44,417 nt of DNA, taken from the IMG/VR virus record IMGVR_UViG_3300030104_002244, positions 1-44,417 of that record; one strand, written 5' to 3'. The position numbers were made by a program, and so were the translations under genes. Positions 16,214-29,619 of this stretch are shown here, piece by piece (position 1 is the first letter of the stretch; the number at the start of each line of letters is the position of its first letter). The notes beneath the pieces were generated by a model that worked only from the letters and a program-made list of their open reading frames with translations, searched no databases and was not told the DNA's origin. This DNA is from a virus.

Positions 16214-18256
16214 CTAAATTTCTCTCGTGTCAAGCCAATTCTTTCCTATTTTTGCTTCTAATAGTAAAGGTACATTAAAATCAATATCGTAGTATTGGTG
16301 GATGATGTCGTGCAGATTTTGATTTAGGTGTGCTACTGCCGCTATCACTTCATCCACCTCATTAGGATGCACATCGACTACTATCGAATCATGCACAGTA
16401 TTTACCAGACAACTATAGTGCTTGTCAAGTAATTTTTCAAATTCCAACAAAATAATTGGAACTATACATCCTGTGGCAAAACCTTGAACAGGATAATTCT
16501 TTATCATAGTAAAGAATGTTACACTACCATTGGGTCGTCTTTCAACTTGTGGAAATTCATATTGTCTACCTGATGGTATCGTAATTCTTTTTGTAGACAT
16601 AACCTCATCTGCCAAAGATTTATGCCAATTAAATATTCCCTTATACTTCTCATTAAAGTGTCTATAATATTCTGCTTCCGCTTTCGTTCTGCCATATCCA
16701 CTTGCCCCGTAAAGCGGAGCGAATGTATGCATCTTAGCTACCTGACGGCTCGTAGGCTGTCCCGCATCAGATATAATCTTAGCAGTATAACTATGCACAT
16801 CGAAACCTGTTTTTACCTCTTCCATAGCCACCTTATCCTGTGACAAATATGCCGCCACTCTAAACTCCAATTGAGCAAAATCAGCTTCTAGTATCTGTCC
16901 ATTTTCAAAACGTGAAACAAATACTTTCTTAACAGGAAATGTGCCACCTCGCGGCATGTTTTGCATGTTAGGACTTCTACCACTAAATCTTCCTGTAGAT
17001 GTAATGTGTTGCGTTAATCCCACATGTAAGAAACCATCAGGTTTTGTAAATGTTTTAATACCATGAACAAATGCAGACAAGTATGAATCTAAAGCAGATA
17101 GCCTTTTCACATTAGCTATAAACTTAGCTTGTGGAATCAAGTTATTCGCTGTTGCTTGATTCTGTAACACATCAAGATCACCTTTTGCAGTAGAAAAACC
17201 ATTAGCACTCACCCAAGATTTATTTGTAGGTTTGAATCGTAGCCCTGCGATAGATTGGGATGGTATCAATAGAAACCCCTCACCTAAACACTTCTTACAA
17301 ATATTAGGTTTCTTAAATAGAGTACCATCTTTCCTAGTTTTGTATATCCTTTTGTCGCCCTTACACTCATCACATTGTATAGCTTTAGTTTTATACATAG
17401 GAACAGTATTCTGCTCCACACATTGATTAAAAGCTTTCTTGTCTTTAATAAAGTGAAACAGTTCTTCTCCCCATACTTTCTTATCAATAACTTTTCTACT
17501 GTAGATAACTTGTGATAATTGTTCAGGACTATTCAAATTAATAGGGGTATCTCCCATTAACACTTTCATTTGATCGGACAACTCAAATATTATATTTGTC
17601 TTTTCCTGTTCAAACTCGTTTCGCACTTTCTCTAGTTCCATCTCGTCAACTTTCATGCCATTCATGTACATGCGAGTTAATGTCTTGCAGACTTTATTCT
17701 TAATATCTAAGACTTTACGCAAAGATTGATTCTCTTGGTCTTGATATCTTTTAAACAATGCCCAATACAGACAACGAGTTACTCGTATATCATCTTTCAA
17801 GTAACTACTTAATTCAGCATGTGGTATATCCCTAGTCGTGTAACCTTTTTTAAAATACTCTTTTAGTATTCCTGACTTACCCTGTGGCAATTCGTATCTC
17901 TCTGCACACTTCTCCAAAGACAGACCCTTTTTCATTCCTCTACATAAGACATACTCAGCTAACATCGTGTCATATATATCACAATCAAAATTGAATCCAC
18001 AATTCCACAACCATTGTAAATCATGTTGAGCATTATGCATGATCAATAATGATGCATCTTCAAGTAGACGCTTTAATTTACTAGTGCCATCAGGTTGCTT
18101 CTCAGCATGGTCAAAGGTAAATACAATTGGCTCACCATTACCATTTGCATCCCCAACACCCACCATTGTTAAAGTATTAGTTGGTTCATATGGATCAAGG
18201 TGTAGCTTGCCATCTCTTGTAATTACTGTGTTTTCTACATCAACTACTAATTTCAT
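16214..18256 (-). CDS. polA: Family A DNA polymerase with DnaJ-type zinc-ribbon insertion
   Basis: 680 aa. The 3'-5' exonuclease motifs are present: D6-x-E8, HNAQHDLQWL (D79) and YLKDDIRV (D155/D156). Polymerase motif A is LEADFAQLEFR (D459), motif B is RQVAKMHTFAPLYG and motif C is VHDSIVV. The position equal to E. coli Pol I F762 is Phe (F512). Between the two halves (about residues 290-330) lies a DnaJ-like zinc ribbon: C295-x2-C298-x-G and C320-x2-C323-x-G-x-G. This insert is the hallmark reported for HMO-2011. The replicative role follows from the adjoining helicase and primase. A palindromic operator lies just upstream of its ribosome site. Confidence 0.95.
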   Translation of the reverse strand: MKLVVDVENTVITRDGKLHLDPYEPTNTLTMVGVGDANGNGEPIVFTFDHAEKQPDGTSKLKRLLEDASLLIMHNAQHDLQWLWNCGFNFDCDIYDTMLAEYVLCRGMKKGLSLEKCAERYELPQGKSGILKEYFKKGYTTRDIPHAELSSYLKDDIRVTRCLYWALFKRYQDQENQSLRKVLDIKNKVCKTLTRMYMNGMKVDEMELEKVRNEFEQEKTNIIFELSDQMKVLMGDTPINLNSPEQLSQVIYSRKVIDKKVWGEELFHFIKDKKAFNQCVEQNTVPMYKTKAIQCDECKGDKRIYKTRKDGTLFKKPNICKKCLGEGFLLIPSQSIAGLRFKPTNKSWVSANGFSTAKGDLDVLQNQATANNLIPQAKFIANVKRLSALDSYLSAFVHGIKTFTKPDGFLHVGLTQHITSTGRFSGRSPNMQNMPRGGTFPVKKVFVSRFENGQILEADFAQLEFRVAAYLSQDKVAMEEVKTGFDVHSYTAKIISDAGQPTSRQVAKMHTFAPLYGASGYGRTKAEAEYYRHFNEKYKGIFNWHKSLADEVMSTKRITIPSGRQYEFPQVERRPNGSVTFFTMIKNYPVQGFATGCIVPIILLEFEKLLDKHYSCLVNTVHDSIVVDVHPNEVDEVIAAVAHLNQNLHDIIHQYYDIDFNVPLLLEAKIGKNWLDTREI

Positions 18257-18270
18257 TTTATGCTCCTAAT

Positions 18271-18284
18271 ATGTCATGTGACAT
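18271..18284. promoter_or_regulatory. Palindromic operator, copy 1 (upstream of DNA polymerase)
   Basis: ATGTCATGTGACAT: arms ATGTCA and TGACAT around TG. It lies between the helicase stop and the DNA polymerase start, 14 nt from the ATG at 18256. On the minus strand the flank GTACCATAGTGAA precedes it, almost identical to the flank of copy 2 (GTACAATAGTGAA). Confidence 0.75.
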
Positions 18285-18286
18285 TT

Positions 18287-18303
18287 CACTATGGTACATA
18301 GTG
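18287..18303. other. Perfect inverted repeat at the helicase stop
   Basis: CACTATG-GTA-CATAGTG has seven-base arms around three bases. It covers the last helicase codons and lies 2 bp from operator copy 1. It may form an RNA hairpin at the helicase/polymerase junction, without a T run. Confidence 0.55.
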
Positions 18304-19509
18304 TGATTTTTCTTTATCTAATCGACAAGTAATACTTCCATGCCAACCATTTAATTTATTTTTAGAAACCACAATATGTCTTATATCACTTTCCTCTTCC
18401 CCTTCTAGTGGTGGATCTTTAGATAAAAGTAACATCAAATCTGTTTCAGCCGCCTTACCTGTCTTAGACCCTTCAAGCATAGATTGATTAGGTGTGACTC
18501 TGCCCTCTGCTTCCGCAGACAATTGGCTCATCCATATTACAGCACAGCCATATATCTTTGCCATGTTTCTAGCATGAATAGCGGCATCTTTTAAATACAC
18601 ATCTGATTTGTCACTACTTCTTACTGCAAATTTATCTCCCATGTCTAGCACAACAATGTCAGGTTTACTTGCTTTAATGGTAAGCTCCACCCAATTCATA
18701 TCATTGCCTGTGCAATCTAGAATACTTAGTCTATTTCTAACTTCCTTATATAGCAAACCTGCCTTTGCAGGATTATTCTTAATATCACGTAATGTCATAC
18801 CTGTTGCCGCAGTTAAGTATCTAGAGCCTACCCTATGATATGCTTCTTCATTTGTCAATACTATGCATCTAGCACCTTGACTAACGAATCCACCAGGACC
18901 TGCTATAACTGATGCTTGGAAAGATGTTTTTCCTGTGTTAGGTCTTGCACCAATCATAACTAAGTGACCATCGCTGATGCCCTCAATCTTATCTTTAAGA
19001 GTAGGTAAATTGAATTTCCATTTAGCTTCTAGGTCATTGAGTCTTAAAAGTGTTTCAATACTAATATCTTCCCAATCAATCTGGATGTTAGGTAGAAAGT
19101 TATCATTGTGCTTTTCAATCATTCTTCGCAATGGCTCAAGTGAAGTAGTAGAACCATTCACATAATCAAAACCAATATTGGCTATCTCCTCTCCAAGTGA
19201 CTGTCTAAATAAGCTAGATAGAACATCACTAGCTATTTCACTATTCATAGGTTGTTGTTTCTCAAGTTTTGCAAAGAGTCCATTGTATACTTGCCTATTG
19301 GAAGTAGTCATAGTTGGATTGTTAGCATTAAATAATGCTTGCAACTCATCAACAGACAAACTCTTCTCGTATTTTTTCATTGCGTAATCCAAGACTTGCT
19401 TAATCTTGACCACATCTTTTGAAAAAATCTTATCTGGTGATTTAACACCCTTATGTTCTGTGTAAAAATCTCTATCCATGAGAGATCGTATCAATGCCAA
19501 CTCTGTCAT
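18289..19509 (-). CDS. DnaB/T7 gp4-type replicative helicase (RecA fold), stand-alone
   Basis: 406 aa. Walker A is GARPNTGKTSF (residues 187-197), followed by LTNEEAYHRVGSR with the conserved Glu pair, Walker B IVVLDMGD and a later IWMSQLSAEAEGR (H2/H3-like Gln). The N-terminal ~170 residues contain no zinc finger or Toprim; primase is encoded separately by the next upstream gene, overlapping by four bases (ATGA). It would unwind DNA ahead of the family A polymerase. Together the two genes equal a split T7 gp4. Confidence 0.9.
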   Translation of the reverse strand: MTELALIRSLMDRDFYTEHKGVKSPDKIFSKDVVKIKQVLDYAMKKYEKSLSVDELQALFNANNPTMTTSNRQVYNGLFAKLEKQQPMNSEIASDVLSSLFRQSLGEEIANIGFDYVNGSTTSLEPLRRMIEKHNDNFLPNIQIDWEDISIETLLRLNDLEAKWKFNLPTLKDKIEGISDGHLVMIGARPNTGKTSFQASVIAGPGGFVSQGARCIVLTNEEAYHRVGSRYLTAATGMTLRDIKNNPAKAGLLYKEVRNRLSILDCTGNDMNWVELTIKASKPDIVVLDMGDKFAVRSSDKSDVYLKDAAIHARNMAKIYGCAVIWMSQLSAEAEGRVTPNQSMLEGSKTGKAAETDLMLLLSKDPPLEGEEESDIRHIVVSKNKLNGWHGSITCRLDKEKSHYVP

Positions 19510-20300
19510 ATTAAAACCTTTTTCAACCTTTCTATATCTTGCACTCTCCTATATTTTATATCATCTGTCAAGTTAAATGCAATAGTATTTGCAACAAAAT
19601 TTCTTATTTCCTTCGTGTAAGCAATTGTCTTCTTCTTAGCATCAGGATCAAGAGCAACTACTATTGTATCATAGTTACACAAAAATTCCTTGTGCTTGTG
19701 ATTTAATGATGTGCCTAATATAGCCACCCCATCTGTTTCAGGTATCGTATCGTAAATTACTAAAGCAGACAAAACATCCTCAACGATAATTGCTTTCTTT
19801 CTCTTTGAGAGAGAATGTTGAACATAAAAATCTGCCCTGCCACTATATCTAAGCCACTTAGGATTCTTACCATTTAAACTTCTACCAATAGCATCAATCA
19901 AATTACCCCTACCATCTCTAATTGGAAAAACAACACGATCATCTTTAACATCATACATAATATATGCAGATGAAAGATTTTTTAGCAATCCCCATCGTGA
20001 CATAAATGCCTTGATGATAGGTTTGCTTATGTCGTGAGTAACATAGTCAGGCATTCTAAATGTTTCTGTTACATTTTCAACAGTTTTCGATTTATTTACC
20101 AAGTTATATATATCCTCACGATTAAGACCAATATTATTTTTACCTTTTAATTCACAAGATAAACGATAACAATTGTAAAGAACTGTTCCATCCACCTTAG
20201 ATGCAGTAAAAGTATTTTTACCTTTACATGAAGGGCAATCACTTCTAATGCTATCTCCCTCACATATCTGTAATTCACTTATATATGTATTAATAAACAT
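19506..20300 (-). CDS. DNA primase (zinc-binding plus Toprim), stand-alone
   Basis: 264 aa. The N-terminus has a zinc-binding set C22-x2-C25, C44 and C49. The middle region (WGLLKNLSSAYIMYDVKDDR, then VVFPIRDGRGNLIDAIGR) matches the T7 gp4/DnaG RNA polymerase domain. Toprim motifs are IVEDVLSAL (catalytic Glu) and VALDPDA (D-x-D). It makes RNA primers for lagging-strand synthesis and is translationally coupled to the helicase. A candidate promoter lies upstream at 20360-20332. Confidence 0.9.
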   Translation of the reverse strand: MFINTYISELQICEGDSIRSDCPSCKGKNTFTASKVDGTVLYNCYRLSCELKGKNNIGLNREDIYNLVNKSKTVENVTETFRMPDYVTHDISKPIIKAFMSRWGLLKNLSSAYIMYDVKDDRVVFPIRDGRGNLIDAIGRSLNGKNPKWLRYSGRADFYVQHSLSKRKKAIIVEDVLSALVIYDTIPETDGVAILGTSLNHKHKEFLCNYDTIVVALDPDAKKKTIAYTKEIRNFVANTIAFNLTDDIKYRRVQDIERLKKVLI

Positions 20301-20331
20301 TTAAATGTTCCACTTAGATGATATTTACAAT

Positions 20332-20360
20332 AATATTGCATTAACTTTTTCATTTGTCAA
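20332..20360 (-). promoter_or_regulatory. Candidate sigma70-like promoter for primase-helicase
   Basis: Minus strand TTGACA (20360-20355), then AATATT at 17 nt (20337-20332) or TATTAT at 19 nt. It lies in the 74-nt gap between integrase stop and primase start, where no gene is seen. The -10 box is imperfect. Confidence 0.4.
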
Positions 20361-20374
20361 GACCCTCCCATAAA

Positions 20375-21481
20375 TTAATATAAAGACTGTCGCTTAGATA
20401 ACGCACTTTTTGATGAATTGAGTGTGTGTTTCACATAAGGAGTCACAGATTGCACATTTTGATGCCCACTCACAGACATTATTTGTGTTATGTCCACACC
20501 AGACTCCACCATCTCTGTAATCCCTGTTCTACGCATGTCCATTATCTGTAACTCACTAGGAAGACCACAAGCATCCTTTATCTGATTTGCAAAGGCAGAC
20601 ACTTGTGTTGAACTATAAGGTCTGTAGCCCCCTTTAAATGGCTTTACAGAGGGTGCAACATATTCTTGAAAACCAAAATCATCTTTTTGCTTACGTAACA
20701 TCCTAGCTAAATTGTCTGATATGGGCAAAAAAACCTCTGCTCTCCTCTTGGATTGCTCTAATGTAAGCAATTGCTCGTCTAAATTAACGCTGACCCACTT
20801 TAAAGTTCGCATATCCCCCACCCTCTGACACCATTCGTATGCCATATGAGATATCAATCCAATATTTCTCCATTTCCACTTGCTATAAGCCATATCTAGA
20901 AACATTCTGACCTGATCTTGTGTCCACATTACCTTTCTAGGCAACTCCTTTTGTTTTTCGATCCCAATGAGAGGGTTTGATGGGATAATATCATACTCAA
21001 TTGCTACATTAAGCACTTTTCTTAGCACAGAGTGTGTTATATTAGCAGTTCTCACCCCACGTTGTAGCCATTTTTCATATGCAACCTTGATATCTGCCCT
21101 AGATAACTGTCCTAGCTTAATATTTTGCAATGTTTTGCTACCAACCCTAGTCATCAACGCAGATTGCACTAAATTTCTGTAATCTCTCTTCGTTTGCTCA
21201 CGTAACTTGTTGAAACTGTGTGTTGTTTGGTAAAATCTAAATAAAGCATAAACTGTGCTTTTGTCAGTTGGTATTTTACTAGAAATTTGTCTTTTCTTCC
21301 ACTCTTCTAGCTTTTTATTCTGTTCTTCTATCAACTGAAATGATTTCCACCTCTCAGCTTCGCATCTCATAGGATGTACGATGCCCAATGCTACAACATT
21401 CATCGGTGGATTGTATTCCCACCACTTACTTCCATCAGAATCACGTACTACCCTTACATGTTTTGGTATTTTCTTATTCAT
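20375..21481 (-). CDS. int: Tyrosine recombinase / phage integrase
   Basis: 368 aa. A SAM-like core-binding part (about residues 70-165) is followed by the catalytic domain. It contains EWCQRVGDMRTLKW (first Arg), QSKRRAEVFLP (Lys on the beta hairpin), MDMRRTGITEM (second Arg), SGHQNVQ (His) and TPYVKHT (nucleophile Tyr), so all catalytic residues appear present. It implies site-specific integration or circular-to-linear resolution. It lies between accessory genes and the primase, read in the same direction. Operator copy 2 sits 17 nt upstream of its ATG. No excisionase, repressor or attP can be recognised in this window. Confidence 0.92.
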   Translation of the reverse strand: MNKKIPKHVRVVRDSDGSKWWEYNPPMNVVALGIVHPMRCEAERWKSFQLIEEQNKKLEEWKKRQISSKIPTDKSTVYALFRFYQTTHSFNKLREQTKRDYRNLVQSALMTRVGSKTLQNIKLGQLSRADIKVAYEKWLQRGVRTANITHSVLRKVLNVAIEYDIIPSNPLIGIEKQKELPRKVMWTQDQVRMFLDMAYSKWKWRNIGLISHMAYEWCQRVGDMRTLKWVSVNLDEQLLTLEQSKRRAEVFLPISDNLARMLRKQKDDFGFQEYVAPSVKPFKGGYRPYSSTQVSAFANQIKDACGLPSELQIMDMRRTGITEMVESGVDITQIMSVSGHQNVQSVTPYVKHTLNSSKSALSKRQSLY

Positions 21482-21498
21482 AATCTCTCCTTTTTAAC

Positions 21499-21512
21499 AT
21501 GTCACATGACAT
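21499..21512. promoter_or_regulatory. Palindromic operator, copy 2 (upstream of integrase)
   Basis: ATGTCACATGACAT, 17 nt before the integrase ATG. On the minus strand it is preceded by GTACAATAGTGAA, matching the flank of copy 1 except one base. TACAAT here could serve as a -10 box. Confidence 0.75.
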
Positions 21513-21516
21513 TTCA

Positions 21517-21774
21517 CTATTGTACTTTATAAACTGTGAGTACATCTGTATCTGCACCTCCAATATTTGCTTTATCATAAAAATCTATAACATTATCTGC
21601 TGCAATTGTCAATATATGTTCAGCATTTTCTGAATGATGCACATACATACTCATCAGAGCATAGATAGTAGACAATATATCTTCCTCATCCATGTTCTTA
21701 GGCAGAATTGCACCTATAGTTTCCATCATTTTAGCAAAGACAACAGGATTTTTTATATGTTCATACCTATTCAT
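21517..21774 (-). CDS. 85-aa protein of unknown function
   Basis: Starts ATG 21774, overlapping the preceding gene by 8 nt. It is all-alpha in appearance, acidic, with no Cys and no membrane segment (begins MNRYEHIKNPVVFAK). It is the last gene before the integrase and operator copy 2. I do not recognise a family. Confidence 0.65.
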   Translation of the reverse strand: MNRYEHIKNPVVFAKMMETIGAILPKNMDEEDILSTIYALMSMYVHHSENAEHILTIAADNVIDFYDKANIGGADTDVLTVYKVQ

Positions 21775-21919
21775 AAGCTATCTCCTCACCATACTTAAAT
21801 TTATTCCTTTTATAAGGTTTCTTCTTCCCTTTTTTAGGTGGCACAACTTGTGGTGACTTCCGATCAGTTAACATAGCCTTTGCGATTGGATTCACACGCA
21901 CTATTTTTAATTTTTTCAT
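21767..21919 (-). CDS. 50-aa basic peptide with NPIAKAM motif
   Basis: Start chosen at ATG 21919 because GTGGAGAG lies upstream; a longer frame to 21979 lacks a ribosome site. The peptide reads VRVNPIAKAML, then SPQVVPPKKGKKKPYKRNK, a pattern of small basic phage peptides with an N-terminal NP(L/I)AKA motif and a Lys-rich tail. Its basic tail suggests nucleic-acid binding. Function unknown. Confidence 0.65.
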   Translation of the reverse strand: MKKLKIVRVNPIAKAMLTDRKSPQVVPPKKGKKKPYKRNKFKYGEEIAYE

Positions 21920-22055
21920 CGTTCTCTCCACATATTGTAACTCGTGGGTAGTTCCACATACTGACAAATCGTTTTTCAATATGTAGCTCCCACAAATAAG
22001 CGATTACTATAATAAATAGTAAACTCTTCCACCTATTTACTGTCCATAAAACCAT
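21864..22055 (-). CDS. Possible small single-span membrane protein
   Basis: 63 codons from ATG 22055, inside the end of the preceding gene. It has one hydrophobic stretch (SLLFIIVIAYLW) and would fill the 113-nt gap between 22033 and 21919, but its end overlaps the basic 50-aa gene in another frame. No clear ribosome site. Weakly supported. Confidence 0.25.
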   Translation of the reverse strand: MVLWTVNRWKSLLFIIVIAYLWELHIEKRFVSMWNYPRVTICGENDEKIKNSACESNRKGYVN

Positions 22056-22278
22056 CGTCAACTGCCATGTCAAGCTTGAACTCCTCACTAATCTTAGCTT
22101 TAGTTCTACTTAAATGAGTAAAGATTGCAGATACAAGTTCAGGATGTCTTTGCAATATCTCTACACGATCAGGAGCTAGAGCTTGTGAATCATACTTTAA
22201 TTCATACTCTTCCCTAATTTTTAATATCGCAGTTTGTAAATAATAATCTATTAATAATTTATCTTTATCGTATTTCAT
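22033..22278 (-). CDS. 81-aa helical protein of unknown function
   Basis: ATG 22278 overlaps the preceding stop (ATGA). Mostly helical and charged (starts MKYDKDKLLIDYYLQTAI), no motif. Its tight coupling to the genes on either side supports it as real. Unrecognised. Confidence 0.65.
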   Translation of the reverse strand: MKYDKDKLLIDYYLQTAILKIREEYELKYDSQALAPDRVEILQRHPELVSAIFTHLSRTKAKISEEFKLDMAVDDGFMDSK

Positions 22279-22463
22279 TCGTAAACTCTCCCATACTTAT
22301 ATGCTATTTGATTTCTATTCTTCATCAGAACATCCCTAACAAAGTCTGCAACCTTTTGAGTTTCAGCTACTGTCAAGCCACTTAGTGTGACCTTGAATGC
22401 TTCAGATAAATCTCCAACCATATCAACTTGTTCAAGCGTGAACTTTATGTTTTTTACTGTCAT
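22275..22463 (-). CDS. 62-aa protein of unknown function
   Basis: ATG 22463 lies inside the end of the ABC-ATPase/GNAT gene (32-nt overlap). The product begins MTVKNIKFTLEQVDMVGDLS and is predicted alpha-helical. No family recognised. It is co-translated with the 81-aa gene that follows. Confidence 0.62.
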   Translation of the reverse strand: MTVKNIKFTLEQVDMVGDLSEAFKVTLSGLTVAETQKVADFVRDVLMKNRNQIAYKYGRVYE

Positions 22464-23616
22464 TGTATACCTCTAACCATTTAGGATCGTAAGACTTCCT
22501 GTTCTCACCTATGTACTCATGTGAGTAACAGATGCGTTTCTTTTCTAGTGGAAAGTGATGCCAACTCTTACTGTTGCCACTCTTTGATCTGTCCACCAAG
22601 TTTGTAGCAGTTGGTCGCCATAATGGTGACTTCTGCCTATACTCGCCCATGCGTATGTGACTAGTCTTAGAGAAATATCGCAAGCCTTGTTCAATGTGCA
22701 TGTCAGCAATCGTATCAGATAATCGTGTACCTAAACCAATACCTTGAAAGTCAGGTAGACATACTGTCCTACACTCTCGCCACTTCATGCGAATGTCACC
22801 CTCATATAAACCTGGTGTCCGACCGGGTAGACAGATAGATGATGCGAATGCTACAAGTTCATCTCCCCACTTAGCTATCCATGAACGAGTAGCATGTGGT
22901 AGCTTGTGATTTAGATAGTGATGGTTCTTAAACATTTCCCATTTGTCTCGCTGACATCTGTAAATACTAAGCTCAATTGTGGGTCTGACCCATCGCCTTT
23001 GTGACCCCCTCGACACAAGCTGTTTTGTGTCTGTGTTATATACCCAATCTGGCTCAAGCCATTCAATGATGTCATCATGGCACGATGCAAATACAATGTG
23101 CGATAGTCCTTGCTTACGTATGTACTTAGCCACACTAGAACTGCATGACTTAGCCACATTACGATTGACTACTGATGTGAACTCATCAATGACTGCACCA
23201 TAACTTAACTTACGTGCCAAGTCCGCTCTGAACCCCTCACCATTTGATACGACATGTCTAGGTTTTGCCCATGTAGGCACACTATTCAAGCCAACTGCAC
23301 TCAATCTCTCAATGGCATTGTCTACATCACCAAAATGACTAGCGATTGACATATCTTTGACCCATACAGGTTTGTATTCCTCACCAAACTGTTTCAAGAT
23401 TGATGATTTACCTGACCCACTTGATCCTACGATCAAACCTATGTTGAACTCTAATGGATTGCCATTGTCATAGGTCATTATCTGATCATGTAAGTTAGGC
23501 ACTTCAAATGACGTTGTATAAGTATCGCCCTCGTGATCATGGAATAGATCAAAGAGTTTGTATATCTTTTTGTCTACATCGGTAGCTTGTATGCTACTCG
23601 TTAGTATCTCACCCAT
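22432..23616 (-). CDS. ABC-type ATPase fused to a GNAT acetyltransferase (COG2401-like)
   Basis: 394 aa from ATG 23616, behind AGGAGAAAG; the longer frame from 23634 is less likely. The N-terminal half is an ABC ATPase without membrane spans: Walker A GSSGSGKSS (64-72), a signature-like SNGEGFRADLA (124-134), Walker B AVIDEF (141-146) and H-loop ASCHDD (near 180). The C-terminal half starts near residue 211 and is GNAT-like: NHHYLNHKLP, then CRTVCLPDFQGIGLG (282-296), the acetyl-CoA loop Q-x-x-G-x-G. This order matches COG2401 proteins. The substrate is unknown. Resemblance to Mom-like acyltransferases that modify DNA bases is a hypothesis. It sits amid small accessory genes between DUF932 and the integrase. 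Confidence 0.82.
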   Translation of the reverse strand: MGEILTSSIQATDVDKKIYKLFDLFHDHEGDTYTTSFEVPNLHDQIMTYDNGNPLEFNIGLIVGSSGSGKSSILKQFGEEYKPVWVKDMSIASHFGDVDNAIERLSAVGLNSVPTWAKPRHVVSNGEGFRADLARKLSYGAVIDEFTSVVNRNVAKSCSSSVAKYIRKQGLSHIVFASCHDDIIEWLEPDWVYNTDTKQLVSRGSQRRWVRPTIELSIYRCQRDKWEMFKNHHYLNHKLPHATRSWIAKWGDELVAFASSICLPGRTPGLYEGDIRMKWRECRTVCLPDFQGIGLGTRLSDTIADMHIEQGLRYFSKTSHIRMGEYRQKSPLWRPTATNLVDRSKSGNSKSWHHFPLEKKRICYSHEYIGENRKSYDPKWLEVYNDSKKHKVHA

Positions 23617-23797
23617 ATTCTTTCTCCTGTGCATAATCCCAAACTCGTATAAATTTTTCTAGCCACAATAACTGTGTTGCATTGAACCTACCCTCTTCGT
23701 GAAAGTATCTCTCTTCAAACGCACAACTCAAAGGCTGAACTCCTTGCTCATCTCCCCACTTGTTGTATAGGGTAGTTAACTTATCTAATGTTATCAT
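23609..23797 (-). CDS. 62-aa protein of unknown function
   Basis: Begins MITLDKLTTLYNKWGDEQG. It is Trp/aromatic-rich and helical. ATG 23797 overlaps the preceding stop (ATGA), and the gene runs 8 nt into the ATPase-GNAT start, supplying that gene's ribosome site. No family recognised. Confidence 0.65.
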   Translation of the reverse strand: MITLDKLTTLYNKWGDEQGVQPLSCAFEERYFHEEGRFNATQLLWLEKFIRVWDYAQEKEYG

Positions 23798-23970
23798 CGT
23801 GATTGCTCCTCAAATTTATGTTCCAACAACTTATCTATAACATTATCTAGCTGATTAATCAATAGGTTGTTGCCCATACTAGCCACTTGTTCAATGAGAT
23901 CTTGTGTGCTTGTCACCATAATCTCATCATTGATTTGCTCTCTTAAAGCATCATTGTGTATATTACTCAT
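23794..23970 (-). CDS. 58-aa acidic helical protein of unknown function
   Basis: ATG 23970, stop TGA 23796-23794 overlapping the next start. It starts MSNIHNDALREQIND and ends with FEEQSR; the codons of this end provide a GAGGAG ribosome site for the next gene. Helical, with Leu/Ile heptads near residues 35-50. Function unknown. Confidence 0.6.
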   Translation of the reverse strand: MSNIHNDALREQINDEIMVTSTQDLIEQVASMGNNLLINQLDNVIDKLLEHKFEEQSR

Positions 23971-24121
23971 TTAAGTTTACCTCTTCCTCTTCTGTCCATT
24001 CTTCAAATTCATCATCAATTTCTTTTTTGCTTGCAGACAATAACCACTTCCAATGATTAGGGGGAACTGATTTTTGATTACACAAAATACAAAATTCTGC
24101 TTTTTTAATGGTAATAATCAT
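23963..24121 (-). CDS. 52-aa CxxC protein with acidic tail
   Basis: ATG 24121 behind GAGAGGAC; stop 23965-23963 overlaps the next gene's start. The N-terminus has a single C-x2-C knuckle (EFCILCNQKS) and the C-terminal half is very acidic (EIDDEFEEWTEEEE). Two more ligands would be needed for zinc unless it dimerises. Unknown function. Confidence 0.62.
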   Translation of the reverse strand: MIITIKKAEFCILCNQKSVPPNHWKWLLSASKKEIDDEFEEWTEEEEVNLNE

Positions 24122-24139
24122 CTCTGTCCTCTCTCATAT

Positions 24140-24985
24140 CTAATTAGTCAAAGCCTTGAACTGTGGTGAAGATACCCACTTAGACACTTCTTCCTCTCGT
24201 TTCCACATGGTCACAGCCTTTGTGTCCTTGCCTGTGTTTCTCTCCTTGAAACCATTACGTTCATCTGCGTATGTACTGTAATTGGTGAACGCACTATACA
24301 AGGCATAAAGGTTACGTCCTCTCTTTTGCACCTCTGCATTGTATAGATTGAACATTCTGTCTGCCTTGCGTTCAGACTTCAGCACATTTTCAAGAAGATA
24401 CTTAACACTTTCATCTGACACCTTTGCACTCGCCCAATCTTGTAACTTCGTAGTGTGTCGTCTGAAATCAAAGTCCATGTTCTCAATGTCACGTAAGAAA
24501 TCATTCATGCGAAAGCCACTTGTGTTCTTCTTACGCACCTTGTCATGCTCACCCATAATCTGACCATTCGTGCAGAAGAAATCAATCGTACCGAAATACA
24601 CTTGATTAGAACACAAACCATCTACACCATGTAATGCTATGATACGCAAACCCACATCTTGTGCCATCTTATCTGTCGTGATGGTAGTCTTAGTCGTGGG
24701 AAAGGTAAGGTCTAACATCATAAATGCATTGTTCCTAGCAGTTGATATCCTCATATCCATATTGTGAACATCATCATCTGATAACTTGTCAAACAATGGT
24801 TGAGCAAAACTGTTAGTGAACTCTTGATGTGAGCCACAATGAAAGTTGCTACCCACAATGCCTAGCACCTCACCTGTCACACTATTAACTGCATACTTTT
24901 TGTCATGCATACGTGACGTTTCATAGTGTGTACCAAACTGTAAATAGTCAGGTAAATCAATAATATTTGTAAAATCTAAAGCCAT
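24140..24985 (-). CDS. DUF932 phage/plasmid-like protein
   Basis: 281 aa. Family features: an N-terminal KKYAVNSVTGEVLGIVGSNF strand pair, a central HGVDGLCSNQVYFGTIDFFCTNGQ region and a helical C-terminus. DUF932 proteins are frequent on plasmids and in phages, and their function is not settled. It has its own promoter (25053-25025) about 40 nt upstream, a 60-nt leader and no palindromic operator, so it may be expressed on a different schedule from its neighbours. Base use looks slightly more GC-rich than the adjacent small genes. Confidence 0.85.
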   Translation of the reverse strand: MALDFTNIIDLPDYLQFGTHYETSRMHDKKYAVNSVTGEVLGIVGSNFHCGSHQEFTNSFAQPLFDKLSDDDVHNMDMRISTARNNAFMMLDLTFPTTKTTITTDKMAQDVGLRIIALHGVDGLCSNQVYFGTIDFFCTNGQIMGEHDKVRKKNTSGFRMNDFLRDIENMDFDFRRHTTKLQDWASAKVSDESVKYLLENVLKSERKADRMFNLYNAEVQKRGRNLYALYSAFTNYSTYADERNGFKERNTGKDTKAVTMWKREEEVSKWVSSPQFKALTN

Positions 24986-25024
24986 AATTTTTTTCTCCTC
25001 TTTATGACGTTGCTTATGTAAATA

Positions 25025-25053
25025 GTTATACCACGATTACTCATATTAGTCAA
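25025..25053 (-). promoter_or_regulatory. Sigma70-like promoter for the DUF932 gene
   Basis: Minus strand TTGACT (25053-25048) and TATAAC (25030-25025) with exactly 17 nt between. The -35 lies over the stop region of the upstream gene, and the start codon 24985 is 39 nt beyond the -10. Confidence 0.6.
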
Positions 25054-25549
25054 GTGAACGAGGTACATATAGGTAATTATGATTGAGCCACTTGTGTGCG
25101 TCATGCAAGTTCTCAAAGATATGGGGTAAGTATTGTATCAACCCATCCCAATTTCTTCTAGAGATACTCCAAGATGATTTAAATTTTTTGACTTGCACCA
25201 TCTTAATCTGCTCCATTGACCACTCCATACTTGTGTAACCAACTTGCTTTTCATGTATCACTACTTTAGCAGTATTGACTAACCCATCAATCAACTTGTC
25301 AGAGATATATGGATACTTCTCTACATCAAACAAATAATCCATTGCATACAGTAGATTTTGTTTTGCATCTTGAATATCCCACGATGTAGCATATCGCATT
25401 TCATCTACTAACTTGTGACCTAATGGCTGACGATTAATTTTGTAATCGACACGTTGCAAGATCATAAAGATATCTACCTCGTTGAGCTTGCGTTGATGTG
25501 CGAGGGTAGACCTCACACACCGATTGATACGTTCTAAATGAGGAGTCAC
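25046..25549 (-). CDS. 167-aa protein of unknown function
   Basis: ATG 25549 overlaps the preceding stop (ATGA). Helical, rich in aromatic and His residues; the C-terminal segment SWSISRRNWDGLIQYLP and HDAHKWLNHNYLY has several Trp. No recognisable motif. It is co-translated with the HTH-like 147-aa protein. Confidence 0.65.
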   Translation of the reverse strand: MTPHLERINRCVRSTLAHQRKLNEVDIFMILQRVDYKINRQPLGHKLVDEMRYATSWDIQDAKQNLLYAMDYLFDVEKYPYISDKLIDGLVNTAKVVIHEKQVGYTSMEWSMEQIKMVQVKKFKSSWSISRRNWDGLIQYLPHIFENLHDAHKWLNHNYLYVPRSLD

Positions 25550-25989
25550 GATGCCACCTTTACGTTCTTGCCTTCGCTAATGGATGCATGTTTTTCCATT
25601 TCAGTCAATCTGTCTTTTAGATTTTTGAAATGATGTGACTTGAACTGATCTGGATTTATATTCATCAATGGTGATCTACCCATCAACCATTGTGCTTGTC
25701 TAAGATTGAAGAGAGCTTGCTCCTTCTTAGATTTGTTGGGATGTGCATAGATTTTGCAAAGACGATTTTCAATCCACTTGATCTGCCCCTCTCTCTTACA
25801 TAAGTCTTTTGCAATCTCTTTACGAGTCATCTTTTGCTCAAGACCTCTGATTACCTCTGGCATAGCCATAGCATAATCTTCTTCCCCCGGTTTTCTAACA
25901 CGAGTCCAATCATATGCACCTTCTTCACGCATCTTATTGGTAATTTTTTTGTCGCTTTCAGTTACTACTGATTTAATGGTAAAAGTCAT
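25546..25989 (-). CDS. 147-aa protein with possible helix-turn-helix
   Basis: ATG 25989 is preceded by AGGAGG. Residues about 54-73 (MTRKEIAKDLCKREGQIKWI) look like a helix-turn-helix: short helix, turn, then a second helix. The rest is charged and basic. Operator copy 3 and a promoter lie immediately upstream, so it is both a target and a reasonable candidate for the DNA-binding regulator of the palindrome set. That role is inference. Confidence 0.62.
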   Translation of the reverse strand: MTFTIKSVVTESDKKITNKMREEGAYDWTRVRKPGEEDYAMAMPEVIRGLEQKMTRKEIAKDLCKREGQIKWIENRLCKIYAHPNKSKKEQALFNLRQAQWLMGRSPLMNINPDQFKSHHFKNLKDRLTEMEKHASISEGKNVKVAS

Positions 25990-26030
25990 AATGACCTCCT
26001 ATATTTTTGATTGTTGCTGTTTGGTTTGAA

Positions 26031-26045
26031 ATGTCATCGTGACAT
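26031..26045. promoter_or_regulatory. Palindromic operator, copy 3 (3-nt centre)
   Basis: ATGTCA-TCG-TGACAT: the same arms as the other copies but with three centre bases. It lies 41 nt from the ATG at 25989 and begins about 11 nt beyond the -10 box at 26057-26062, so it covers the early transcribed region. Confidence 0.65.
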
Positions 26046-26056
26046 CTCTAATTATT

Positions 26057-26085
26057 AATATAACACATCTGTTAATGTAAGTAAA
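26057..26085 (-). promoter_or_regulatory. Sigma70-like promoter of the HTH-like gene
   Basis: Minus strand TTTACT (26085-26080), 17 nt, TATATT (26062-26057). Operator copy 3 follows at roughly +6 to +20. The -35 box is within the last codons of the 93-aa gene. Confidence 0.5.
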
Positions 26086-26353
26086 GCCCACCCCCTTTCA
26101 TGTAAAGCCACTTCCCCTCTTCGTCCTCATTGAGTAGGATTGGTGAAGTTGTTTCTATCCATACTTTTGCACCACAAGATAATGGTTTGTCTGGTGAATA
26201 AATCACTTCGCTATCCCCCAAAATTTTTATCTTGTGAGCATATGTATTGGTCTTGCCCCTCTTAATTGTCAACACAGGATTGTTTTCTCCTGTCTTGGCA
26301 TTTGCTCGTATCACATGCTGATTAACGTGAATGCGTTTCTTTGTTTGTCTCAT
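26072..26353 (-). CDS. Conserved 93-aa phage protein (KKRIHVNQHVIRAN family)
   Basis: Begins MRQTKKRIHVNQHVIRANAK, followed by VIYSPDKPLSCGAKVWIET, a conserved pattern in small beta-rich proteins of marine and other phages. Function unknown. ATG 26353 overlaps the preceding stop (ATGA). The single Cys sits in SCGAKVW. Confidence 0.7.
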   Translation of the reverse strand: MRQTKKRIHVNQHVIRANAKTGENNPVLTIKRGKTNTYAHKIKILGDSEVIYSPDKPLSCGAKVWIETTSPILLNEDEEGKWLYMKGGGLYLH

Positions 26354-26499
26354 TTTAACTCCTCACCATAAAAAACTTTTATTTGAAATGAAAAAGTATC
26401 AACATCAATGCCTTGTTCTTTTAATTGATCCTCAATGATGCCACACATGAGTTCCACATCTCTTTTATTTTCTATTGTATTTAAAATTACTTCTTTCAT
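26350..26499 (-). CDS. 49-aa acidic peptide of unknown function
   Basis: Start at ATG 26499 with GGAG upstream; the longer frame to 26562 would lie within the gp88-like gene and has no ribosome site. Begins MKEVILNTIENKRDVELM. Unrecognised. It follows the gp88-like gene with no gap. Confidence 0.55.
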   Translation of the reverse strand: MKEVILNTIENKRDVELMCGIIEDQLKEQGIDVDTFSFQIKVFYGEELK

Positions 26500-26500
26500 T

Positions 26501-27217
26501 TTAATGCTCCGATAAATGTACAATTGATTGACGATTGATAACAGTAGATGAAAAGCACCCACCCTTACATATTGAACAATGCCCTTTCATTTTCTTCCAA
26601 GTTTTAGGACATTCAAAACTCTTAGAAAATGGGATAGCATCAGGTGAATCATCACCAAAAAACATAATGTTCCACCCATGTCTGATTTGCATCACTTCCC
26701 AATCATGTTCACTATTAGACGGATCGAGTGACGCATTGACCGATACGTTAGGCATAGTCATCAACTCATCTTCAATAAGCATTCGCATATATCCATTTTG
26801 CCATGCTCTTGTAGGTAGCCACCAATTTGTATCAGGTGTATCTTCAGCTAATGCCTTGATACGAAACACATCTTGTTTGTTCGCACAAGCTTCTCCTCTA
26901 GACATAAGCCTTGCACGTTTAGTTTGCTTGCGTTTCTTAGATAAATGCTCTGCAATCTGCCATGTATTGTGCTTGCCCATCTTCTGCCAATTTCTTTCAC
27001 AACGAATATCTCGTTCTCTCATATTAGGATACATACGATATAATTTTAAATTGTAACATTTCTCAGCACAATATTTAGTTTTAAAACCATTGCAACTACC
27101 TTGAATAAATGTGCCATCAGCTAATGGTATGTTGTTGATGGGTCTATCAATTTGAAACATACCGATATCACCACCCCATTTGATCATATCATTTAATTCA
27201 TTCTTTGTGTATAACAT
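26501..27217 (-). CDS. gp88-like cysteine-rich protein
   Basis: 238 aa from ATG 27217, preceded by GAGGAGC. It contains KTKYCAEKCYNLK (C50, C54), a central GEACANKQDVF, WWLPTRAWQN (family-like x-TR-x-W), and a C-terminal cluster C203, C214, C217, C221 (FECPKTWKKMKGHCSICKGGC). The pattern resembles the phage gp88 family, which has a CxxxCY start and a terminal CP...CxxC set and is of unknown activity. The Cys spacing suggests a metal or Fe-S site. There is no signal peptide, so it is likely cytoplasmic. Confidence 0.68.
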   Translation of the reverse strand: MLYTKNELNDMIKWGGDIGMFQIDRPINNIPLADGTFIQGSCNGFKTKYCAEKCYNLKLYRMYPNMRERDIRCERNWQKMGKHNTWQIAEHLSKKRKQTKRARLMSRGEACANKQDVFRIKALAEDTPDTNWWLPTRAWQNGYMRMLIEDELMTMPNVSVNASLDPSNSEHDWEVMQIRHGWNIMFFGDDSPDAIPFSKSFECPKTWKKMKGHCSICKGGCFSSTVINRQSIVHLSEH

Positions 27218-27326
27218 CTTCTTGCTCCTCATCATCTTCCAACAACCACACAATTAAATGATGTATTTGGTTAGTAGGTGTGTTCTGCACTAATTCTAAA
27301 AGTAAATCTCTTTTTTGTTCTGCCAT
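27198..27326 (-). CDS. 42-aa acidic peptide of unknown function
   Basis: ATG 27326, stop TGA 27200-27198, overlapping the gp88-like start by 20 nt. Reads MAEQKRDLLLELVQNTPT and then an acidic tail (LLEDDEEQED), whose codons supply the ribosome site for the gene below. It is a coupled micro-gene. Confidence 0.55.
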   Translation of the reverse strand: MAEQKRDLLLELVQNTPTNQIHHLIVWLLEDDEEQEDVIHKE

Positions 27327-27327
27327 T

Positions 27328-27516
27328 TTACACCTTCGCTATCGCCATGAAAAAACCACCAGCACAAAAACCAAAACATGATATACCAAAATATAACGAA
27401 AATGCGTAATCATCTAGTAAGGCAGTAGTAGAAAATATTGGAAGGCAACTTAGTAAGGTCATTGTACTAATACATAAAAGACATAACCCTAAAATAAAAC
27501 AAACTACAAATTGCAT
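27328..27516 (-). CDS. Small two-span membrane protein
   Basis: 62 aa from ATG 27516, behind GAGGATAAC. Two hydrophobic segments: MQFVVCFILGLCLLCISTMT, and near residues 40-58 with FGISCFGFCAGG. Cys-rich. It lies first in a transcription unit with its own promoter and operator copy 4 just upstream of the ribosome site. Possible roles include membrane-based superinfection exclusion, but nothing in the sequence proves this. Confidence 0.6.
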   Translation of the reverse strand: MQFVVCFILGLCLLCISTMTLLSCLPIFSTTALLDDYAFSLYFGISCFGFCAGGFFMAIAKV

Positions 27517-27533
27517 GTTATCCTCTCTTTGAA

Positions 27534-27547
27534 ATGTCATGTGACAT
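27534..27547. promoter_or_regulatory. Palindromic operator, copy 4 (upstream of membrane gene)
   Basis: ATGTCATGTGACAT, 17 nt before the ATG at 27516 and ~30 nt downstream of the start predicted from the promoter at 27613-27585. Confidence 0.72.
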
Positions 27548-27584
27548 TTTACTTGTTTATTGTTTAAATTACTGAATATTATTA

Positions 27585-27613
27585 AATATAGCATATGTGG
27601 CTACGTAAGTCAA
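27585..27613 (-). promoter_or_regulatory. Sigma70-like promoter upstream of membrane/gp88-like genes
   Basis: Minus strand TTGACT (27613-27608), 17 nt, TATATT (27590-27585). Same -10 box and spacer as the promoters at 26062 and 10670. Confidence 0.6.
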
Positions 27614-27635
27614 GCGACCCACCCAACTACCAAAA

Positions 27636-27680
27636 CCCCAACCTATCACTCCGACCCCAACCTATCATCAATACCTATCA
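27636..27680 (+). repeat. Direct repeats of CCCCAACCTATCA in a gene-free gap
   Basis: The 13-mer CCCCAACCTATCA occurs at 27636-27648 and 27655-27667 (19-bp period), with a shorter copy ACCTATCA at 27673-27680. The gap 27595-27772 holds no gene; it contains these repeats, the promoter at 27613-27585 and a terminator. The C-rich plus strand contrasts with the AT-rich surroundings. Confidence 0.7.
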
Positions 27681-27714
27681 GCGAAAATTGATTTGAGAGC
27701 AAAAATCTAGGCAT

Positions 27715-27743
27715 AAAAAAAGGCTCACATAAAATGCAAGCCT
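27715..27743 (-). terminator. Rho-independent terminator after the 273-aa gene
   Basis: Minus strand AGGCTTGCAT and ATGTGAGCCT pair through 10 bp (two wobbles) around TTT, then a T run (27721-27715). It separates the first leftward gene from the rest of the arm. Confidence 0.8.
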
Positions 27744-27772
27744 AATTTTATTTTAATATTTAATTGATAATT

Positions 27773-28594
27773 TTAAAAATCATTAAGTAAAGCTTTGATA
27801 TCAACATTCATTGCATCTGCTTTTTTAACTAAAATATCTAGAGCAGAAAAAATAGCATCTGCATTATCGCACTTGCTAACTTTTTGAGTTCTTGTAATAA
27901 AAACATCTAGTTGACTAGTAAAATTCTTGTCGGTTTGTTCTTGATTAATTGCTTCATCTTTTGGGGTAGCTTTAGAATTGCCAGACACTTTAGCTTTTGA
28001 AATTGAAACAATAGGATCAAAATTTGCTTTCCTGTCAATTTTTAAATTAAGCTTTTTACATACTGTAGCATAAGAAATATATCGACCATCATTTAAAGAA
28101 CAAAAAGTTTTGGTGTCTTCATAAAATTTATAATTTAATGATTTAACCATTTCATTAATTTTTTTGGCACTTTGAAACAATACTAAATAAGCGACATTAG
28201 TAGCTTTTGAACGATTAGTTTTAAATGTTTCTGAATAATCAAAATTATAAACGTCTGCACCAAAAACTGTTTCACATATTGTTTTTTGGTTTTTGGTACT
28301 TGGCAATGATGCCTTGCCATGCTTACCAGTTTTTTCATTAACTACAGTTATTTCTTTTGATAATACACTAGCAATTGCAAGTCCTAGTTTATCGCAATAA
28401 GTATCTGCTTTGATTTGACCATCTAAAGCACTAGGCAACAAATCAGTTAAATTATCAACATGCGTTGAGAAGCTTTTGGTATCATTAGCACTAGCAACGT
28501 ATGAACCATTTTTTGAGATATAGCTAAAAGCTTCTAAATTTACTGTTGCAATTTTAGTCACTTGAGTTTTTGTTTTTGTAGCTGTATTTTTCAT
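27773..28594 (-). CDS. 273-aa first leftward gene, function unknown
   Basis: ATG 28594 behind AAGGA. The N-terminus is basic (MKNTATKTKTQVTK). The rest is mixed with many Lys, Asn and Ser. A short segment near residues 168-185 (GRYISYATVCKKLNLKID) could be a helix-turn-helix but is not convincing. It forms its own transcription unit: tandem operator copies and a perfect TATAAT lie upstream, and a strong terminator follows. Monocistronic position at the head of the arm under the duplicated operator makes it a candidate for the regulator itself. No homologue is recognised. Confidence 0.7.
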   Translation of the reverse strand: MKNTATKTKTQVTKIATVNLEAFSYISKNGSYVASANDTKSFSTHVDNLTDLLPSALDGQIKADTYCDKLGLAIASVLSKEITVVNEKTGKHGKASLPSTKNQKTICETVFGADVYNFDYSETFKTNRSKATNVAYLVLFQSAKKINEMVKSLNYKFYEDTKTFCSLNDGRYISYATVCKKLNLKIDRKANFDPIVSISKAKVSGNSKATPKDEAINQEQTDKNFTSQLDVFITRTQKVSKCDNADAIFSALDILVKKADAMNVDIKALLNDF

Positions 28595-28659
28595 TTTAAT
28601 TTTTCCTTATTATAAAAGCTTATATTTGAAATAGGCTATAAGCAATTGCCTTAACTAAT

Positions 28660-28688
28660 GTTATATCTTATTTAATCACATATTACAA
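28660..28688 (-). promoter_or_regulatory. Second candidate promoter for the 273-aa gene
   Basis: Minus strand TTGTAA (28688-28683), 17 nt, TATAAC (28665-28660), about 65 nt before the ATG at 28594. Boxes are weaker than the other promoters, and AT-richness makes chance matches likely. Confidence 0.35.
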
Positions 28689-28754
28689 TAGCTAATGTAA
28701 ATTATTTTAAATTAAATTATTACACCTTACATTACTAGTACTTATTCTTTTGAT

Positions 28755-28768
28755 ATGTCACATGACAT
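28755..28768. promoter_or_regulatory. Palindromic operator, copy 5
   Basis: ATGTCACATGACAT. Its centre is 42 bp from that of copy 6, i.e. about four helical turns, so both would face the same side of the DNA. It lies just downstream of a leftward TATAAT at 28790-28785. Confidence 0.78.
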
Positions 28769-28784
28769 TTTAAATAGTGATACA

Positions 28785-28790
28785 ATTATA
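28785..28790 (-). promoter_or_regulatory. Perfect -10 box (TATAAT) between operators 5 and 6
   Basis: Minus strand TATAAT. No TTGACA-like box is found 16-18 nt upstream (the bases there are AAAATG), so the promoter may depend on a protein bound at copy 6 (28797-28810), seven bases upstream, or be blocked by it. Confidence 0.45.
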
Positions 28791-28796
28791 TGTGAT

Positions 28797-28810
28797 ATGT
28801 CACATGACAT
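28797..28810. promoter_or_regulatory. Palindromic operator, copy 6
   Basis: ATGTCACATGACAT, identical to copies 2 and 5. It occupies the -35 to -10 spacer of the leftward TATAAT promoter. Confidence 0.78.
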
Positions 28811-29337: not shown

Positions 29338-29366
29338 TTGACATTGAAAAAGAAATGTGTAAAACT
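29338..29366 (+). promoter_or_regulatory. Rightward promoter-like element, copy 2
   Basis: TTGACAT, 10 nt, ATGTGTAAAACT, the same as copy 1, followed by TATATAACTATAAC. It lies at the very start of the first rightward gene, implying that the true start codon of that gene is farther downstream. Confidence 0.5.
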
Positions 29367-29619
29367 ATATAACTATAACTCTGTACTAGAAGAATATTAT
29401 ACTGCCCTCATTAAAAAAAGGCATATATCTTTGCTAAAAGACATACATGTACCGATATCAGATGTATTCTATGTACGAAAAGCAATAGAAATGGATACAG
29501 GAGTTAAATATAGCCTAGATCATGTAGAAAGAGCTATGTATTTAGAGGGGCATCTGAGTGCATCAGATGTATTAGACCCTCATGTACCACGAGGATACTG
29601 TAGTTATGATAACACCTGA
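29338..29619 (+). CDS. First rightward gene, small protein, start uncertain
   Basis: The frame open from TTG 29338 gives 93 aa, but that start overlaps a promoter-like element. A TTG at about 29431, behind AAGG, would give roughly 62 aa beginning with LKDIHVPISDVF. The conserved-looking part is VFYVRKAIEMDTGVKYSL and HVPRGYCSYD. Function unknown. It overlaps the next gene by 14 nt. Confidence 0.55.
   Translation: MTLKKKCVKLYNYNSVLEEYYTALIKKRHISLLKDIHVPISDVFYVRKAIEMDTGVKYSLDHVERAMYLEGHLSASDVLDPHVPRGYCSYDNT

Follow-up and report, generated by a model that had tools for sequence, protein, structure and literature searches.

Dispersed palindromes in the early arm of an HMO-2011-type marine phage as probable DNA operators of one phage-encoded regulator

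Dispersed operators in described systems

Operators of one regulator that lie dispersed are known from the conserved inverted repeats of phiC31, the c1 operators of P1 and the KorB sites of RK2, those of phiC31 and RK2 being palindromic. The sites of the marine phages described here are likewise dispersed, whereas the hosts and element types differ and the regulators are unrelated by the searches made. In Cluster A mycobacteriophages (L5/Bxb1), stoperators act on initiation and, as has been proposed, on elongation (PMC6550527, PMC9283540). As in the marine phages, one short word recurs in short gaps across the early region and at the early promoter, and its letters shift from phage to phage in step with the repressor that each phage encodes (PMC6550527, PMC9283540). 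However, the L5 word is an asymmetric 13-bp sequence, present at more than 20 sites, most of them oriented alike, and its binding protein is a monomer with a known helix-turn-helix (HTH) (PMC6550527, PMC9283540), whereas the marine phages carry 14–16-bp palindromes, two to nine per locus and in both orientations, together with a protein of unknown family and fold. The SPBRE/MrpR system of SPbeta is similar in that a 15-bp element is repeated intergenically in one prophage and the master repressor, recognised only late, is not of the CI type (PMC10516654). MrpR adopts a tyrosine-recombinase fold (PMC10516654); by contrast, the marine proteins are smaller and helical, with no detected relation to it.

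By the features tested, the marine system is a member of neither the stoperator nor the SPBRE/MrpR systems. A word occupying short gaps of the early arm and the early promoter is present here, as judged from sequence; the cores are palindromic and occur in both orientations, unlike the asymmetric 13-bp word of one orientation. A Cluster A Rep homologue was not found, the candidate regulators gave no significant match in Pfam, PHROG or NCBIfam, and the integrase is encoded by a gene separate from theirs.

The window and its phage type

The window—the whole stretch of DNA analysed, 44,417 nt of the IMG/VR virus record IMGVR_UViG_3300030104_002244—comes from an integrase-bearing podovirus of the HMO-2011 type. 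Its DNA polymerase A (PolA) is 57% identical to that of HMO-2011 over 100% of the length and, in translation, contains the CxxCxG motifs of a DnaJ-like zinc motif; the window also shares the order of primase, helicase and polymerase with relatives, and an RNR is a further mark of the group, to which it belongs by these features. HMO-2011-type phages are reported to be dominant and widespread in the sea. Most phages of subgroups I and III have been reported to carry an integrase, and CRP-3 to integrate into a tRNA gene (PMC9038755, PMC6918029), and the main texts of these two papers make no mention of an operator, a repressor or a palindrome. The genes relevant here, which the earlier note had named correctly where they lie downstream of a palindrome, are the following.

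16214–18256, minus strand: DNA polymerase A, HMO-2011 type, the gene behind site 6 (by homology)
20375–21481, minus strand: tyrosine integrase (PF00589), the gene behind site 5 (by profile match)
25546–25989, minus strand: HTH-like protein of 147 aa with weak ParB-HTH resemblance, the rival candidate regulator (by homology and sequence)
27328–27516, minus strand: small membrane protein, the gene behind site 3 (start codon picked from sequence)
27773–28594, minus strand: first leftward gene, 273 aa, without known family, the preferred candidate regulator (by position and divergence)

The first rightward gene (29338–29619) is also without known family, and its N-terminal part recurs at the same place in G001, the closest complete relative. 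Homologues of L5 gp82 (HMO-2011 gp02 and CRP-345 gp09) and of GP88 (HMO-2011 gp01) are found in the operator-rich early arm of the marine phages.

Six palindromes in the leftward arm

Five exact copies of ATGTCA-N2-TGACAT, at 18271, 21499, 27534, 28755 and 28797, and one copy of ATGTCA-TCG-TGACAT, at 26031, are present in the window.

28797–28810, no strand: palindromic site 1 (ATGTCACATGACAT), upstream of the first leftward gene (sequence scan)
28785–28790, minus strand: possible -10 box (TATAAT) of an early leftward promoter (sequence and inference)
28755–28768, no strand: palindromic site 2, 42 bp from site 1 with the leftward TATAAT in between (sequence scan)
27534–27547, no strand: palindromic site 3, located 18 nt ahead of the start codon of the small membrane gene (sequence scan)
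26031–26045, no strand: palindromic site 4, with the 3-nt centre TCG, before the HTH-like gene 25546–25989 (sequence scan)
21499–21512, no strand: palindromic site 5, before the integrase gene (sequence scan)
18271–18284, no strand: palindromic site 6, before DNA polymerase A (sequence scan)

Elsewhere in the window no further copy with fewer than two mismatches occurs; the earlier note had found no intact copy in the rightward arm. Apart from AT-type palindromes, the ATGTCA family was the sole repeated family returned by a blind scan for repeated palindromes with 6-bp arms. From base composition 0.005 copies would be expected against the six observed, and none of 300 order-2 Markov sequences yielded a palindrome family of six copies, the maximum being five (in 2 of 300). 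All six copies lie in non-coding DNA, which makes up 6% of the leftward arm (p ~5e-8), a count for which the membrane gene is taken to begin at the ATG at 27516; its longest ORF, reaching 27594, would run over the copy at 27534. The six copies reported in the earlier note are thus real, exact, intergenic and far above chance. Its description of conserved arms around a differing centre holds for the arms, which are exact; the CA and TG centres, however, are one and the same YR step on opposite strands, so that five of the copies are a single sequence.

Sites 1 and 2 bracket the possible -10 box, for which no good -35 box was found. Their 42-bp spacing, which had been read as four helical turns, is not a conserved feature, as G001 has a single site at this place. 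The stretch with site 6, at the polymerase junction, is missing from 93%-identical relatives. A second inverted repeat, CACTATG-N3-CATAGTG at 18287–18303, adjoins this site and overlaps the end of the helicase gene.

Probable operator words in relatives

The ATGTCA-type word of the window is absent from all 79 polymerase relatives, and megablast of the leftward arm against known phages gave no match. Within IMG/VR the word was found in 45 stretches, none with a second separate copy, and a search there for tandem window-type sites returned none. When relatives were scanned for any repeated palindrome rather than for the letters of the window alone, many integrase-bearing ones proved to carry a word of their own of the same build, with one main word in each genome. 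These words are TTGCCA-CR-TGGCAA in L084 and L085; TTGTCA-CG-TGACAA, in two exact copies, in L086, whose word TTGTCACGTGACAA is an intermediate one; GTCCAA-N2-TTGGAC in CRP-1, CRP-345 and many contigs; GTCCGA-N2-TCGGAC and CCCGA-N2-TCGGG in further relatives; TGTCAA-N3-TTGACA in L119; and AGTCCGACAGCGGACT (AGTCCG-ACAG-CGGACT) in HMO-2011. Those of HMO-2011, CRP-1 and CRP-345 sit in the same arm as the sites of the window.

G001 (59,495 bases; polymerase 91% and integrase 76% identical to those of the window) contains exactly six copies of TTGCCACGTGGCAA, all in the leftward arm, and elsewhere a single match with two mismatches. They precede the homologue of 27773–28594, follow this gene, precede a GP88-like gene, the homologue of 25546–25989 and the integrase gene, and lie inside the primase gene. 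Three junctions—those of the first gene, the HTH-like gene and the integrase—are common exactly to both phages, whereas the polymerase site of the window and the primase site of G001 are not shared. In letters, the ATGTCA word is therefore absent at the same junctions in close relatives, an outcome that the earlier note had listed as speaking against its operator set. As sites, the palindromes are present there, with the same design and a different word. Across the relatives, 396 sites were counted in 494 kb of early arm versus 1 in 431 kb elsewhere. Conserved places combined with concerted change of the letters point to a trans-acting factor common to all sites.

Such a factor could in principle act on RNA. 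Four window copies lie 15–42 nt before a start codon, and for 124 of 200 downstream sites in relatives both a ribosome site and a start codon follow within 46 nt. This would suit hairpins before ribosome sites, either protein-bound, the alternative raised in the earlier note, or cut by an RNase. This reading is nevertheless very improbable. The stems are weak (-4 to -6 kcal/mol in the window lineage), with a stability that hardly, if at all, exceeds that of shuffled sequences (z -0.4 to -1.7); relative to the direction of transcription the sites point both ways, the 24-bp flanked form of G001 being forward in three cases and reversed in three; in GTCCRA phages the upstream sites are 212–445 nt ahead of the first gene, and in the window site 1 is upstream of the -10 box. 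Moreover, a YR step, on one strand or the other, occupies most centres, as for duplex recognition, Rfam gave no match to a curated RNA family, and many sites of relatives lie inside coding sequence. These codon-embedded sites are exact palindromes in 70 of 76 genes, although this calls for rare codons (TCC for 7% of Ser, GGA for 12% of Gly).

The first-gene family

In the CRP and HMO-2011 lineages, the first gene of the early arm encodes a protein of about 200 residues that is unannotated and of no known family (cluster 6, with HMO-2011 gp74 and CRP-345 gp01). Membership of gp74, which is flanked by two palindromes, is given by a BLASTP match to L153 (E 3e-15). When the protein was used to fetch loci from IMG/VR, 80 of 80 carried two to nine palindromes with one main type each, a set that includes overlapping and near-identical records, so that the independent cases are fewer (77 distinct proteins). 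Stray single copies of another word type occur in 7 of 92 loci. Four genomes with the gene that had been missed by the strict scan carry variant words, and gene and palindromes are both absent from CRP-2, CRP-207 and CRP-603. In the early arm of the latter three (L164–L166) lie genes for DNA methylases, which may reflect another strategy of control or protection. No prophage carrying the gene was detected in 84,980 genomes.

AlphaFold2 predicts for this protein a confident helical N-domain (residues 11–125), a disordered linker (129–161), in which a palindrome is encoded, and a C-terminal helix pair. A fold search of the PDB with the model gave nothing significant; no solved DNA-binding protein and no tyrosine-recombinase fold was matched. 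The best match in BFVD is S4S2E1 (205 aa), probably HMO-2011 gp74 itself.

Among the 77 distinct proteins, two residues co-vary with the word, apart from one that a palindrome in the linker itself encodes. Residue 110 is T in 64 of 65 GTCCAA phages versus S in 12 of 12 GTCCGA phages, and residue 117 is R, K or H in all of the former versus mostly N, A or S in the latter. Normalised mutual information with the GTCCAA/GTCCGA type is 0.89 for T110 and 0.91 for R117, the next column of the protein reaching 0.48; the best columns of ten other shared proteins reach 0.40–0.77 with fewer rows, bar one column that is encoded by a site. At least eight switches of type occur on the tree of this protein, and in each of six informative independent pairs the two residues agree with the type (p=0.03); on a tree of the N-terminal part alone, 4–5 of 5 pairs agree, which is not significant. 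Part of the co-variation could be hitch-hiking, as both residues are near the site inside the same gene. Spaced by seven residues, the two share a face of the SL[T/S]ALQ helix, and in the modelled protein they fall within or border on a predicted helix (112–125) of the well-folded N-domain. The C-terminal 40 residues, which differ by type, were considered as the specificity part and discarded, as the residue test favoured the helix before the linker.

Candidate regulators of the window

In the window, the position of the cluster 6 gene is taken by 27773–28594, downstream of the promoter-like TATAAT that has one of the twin sites on either side. Its product is 31–37% identical to that of G001, compared with 70–96% for larger neighbours (replication genes), and no relatives beyond G001 were found. 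Homology to gp74/gp01 was tried and not retained (hhalign E 0.11; hmmsearch no better than shuffles), short stretches being alike by eye: YISYATVCKKLNL resembles the cluster 6 helix, and G001 differs there (YVSYCSVSKKLNL). A candidate recognition helix may lie near GRYISYATVCKKLNLK. On position and divergence, the product of 27773–28594 is rather likely to be the regulator of this phage.

The operators may be DNA sites and yet be served by the HTH-like protein 25546–25989, a reading that is unlikely although several features suit it. The gene has its own site in front, as for autoregulation, and a ParB-like HTH stretch (phmmer to 6ryk residues 167–222, E 0.56); the protein is 43% identical to its G001 homologue, the putative recognition helix differing strongly while flanking residues are kept, and L084 and L085, with the same half-sites, encode near-identical copies. 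However, it has no relatives outside the TTGCCA lineage, whereas the palindrome system extends far wider; its AlphaFold2 model is too poor for use (pLDDT 47), and several neighbours diverge as much. Known CI/Cro-type HTH repressor genes are lacking among the proteins scanned, in line with the earlier statement that no CI- or Cro-like repressor is present; yet a candidate regulator family does exist in the first leftward gene, which had been listed there for binding tests.

The half-site TTGTCAC of L086 resembles the parS sequence TTTCAC, and with the weak likeness of 25546–25989 to a ParB HTH and the closeness of sites to replication genes this might suggest replication or partition sites rather than transcription operators. 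The sites lie in leaders of many unrelated genes and not in one cluster, no ParA was found among the proteins scanned, and 25546–25989 is not conserved with the palindrome system, all of which makes such a function highly doubtful.

Proposed mode of action

The six palindromes are probably DNA operators of one phage-encoded, sequence-specific regulator, itself probably dimeric and most likely the first early protein, in a stoperator-like arrangement. The location of two copies around the presumed early leftward promoter fits repression of initiation, and the bound regulator would most likely shut or damp early transcription there. The other four copies, just before the genes for the membrane protein, the HTH-like protein, integrase and DNA polymerase in the early operon, lie between a stop codon and the ribosome site of the downstream gene; this fits control as a roadblock or by closing of internal promoters. 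The regulator would be the first early gene product, of the gp74/gp01 family in related lineages and of 27773–28594 here by position, and operator letters and recognition helix would change together, as between immunity types. The earlier proposal of a dimeric regulator acting on replication and integration together is supported by relatives with the same junctions, the same design and concerted letters; binding and dimerisation, the direction of repression and the equivalence of 27773–28594 to gp74/gp01 are what we infer. Such a regulator may serve the upkeep of lysogeny, the damping of early genes in lysis, or both.

The evidence points to an undescribed gene-control system in an abundant group of ocean phages. 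There is about an even chance that the gp74 type constitutes a new family of phage DNA-binding regulators, with a fold lacking a PDB match, that controls dispersed operators in integrase-bearing HMO-2011-type marine phages, a few helix residues setting specificity and immunity types diversifying by concerted site change. What is gained is a readable operator set in many integrase-bearing genomes, a named candidate protein and a testable residue-to-base rule. If this is an immunity system, sequence alone could suffice to sort uncultured ocean phages into immunity groups, and the joint change of a regulator and six dispersed sites could be studied as the natural series ATGTCA, TTGTCA, TTGCCA.

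Further repeats in relatives

Two relatives without an exact operator set carry a 24-nt identical repeat in the primase and polymerase genes (L014: 4990–5013 and 7159–7182; L017: 5582–5605 and 7754–7777), the core of which, TTGCCACAGGGCAA in L014 and TTGCCATATGGTAA in L017, differs in concert between both phages. In GTCCAA-type phages, GTCCAAGGTTGGAC occurs inside the integrase gene at a conserved place (L162: 7079–7092; L111: 10858–10871), which may represent a coding constraint or a site. Finally, the frame of a gene of about 48 residues (L162: 2082–2231, and homologues) is crossed by a site, so that the operator word is read as protein (SNVG/SDVG).
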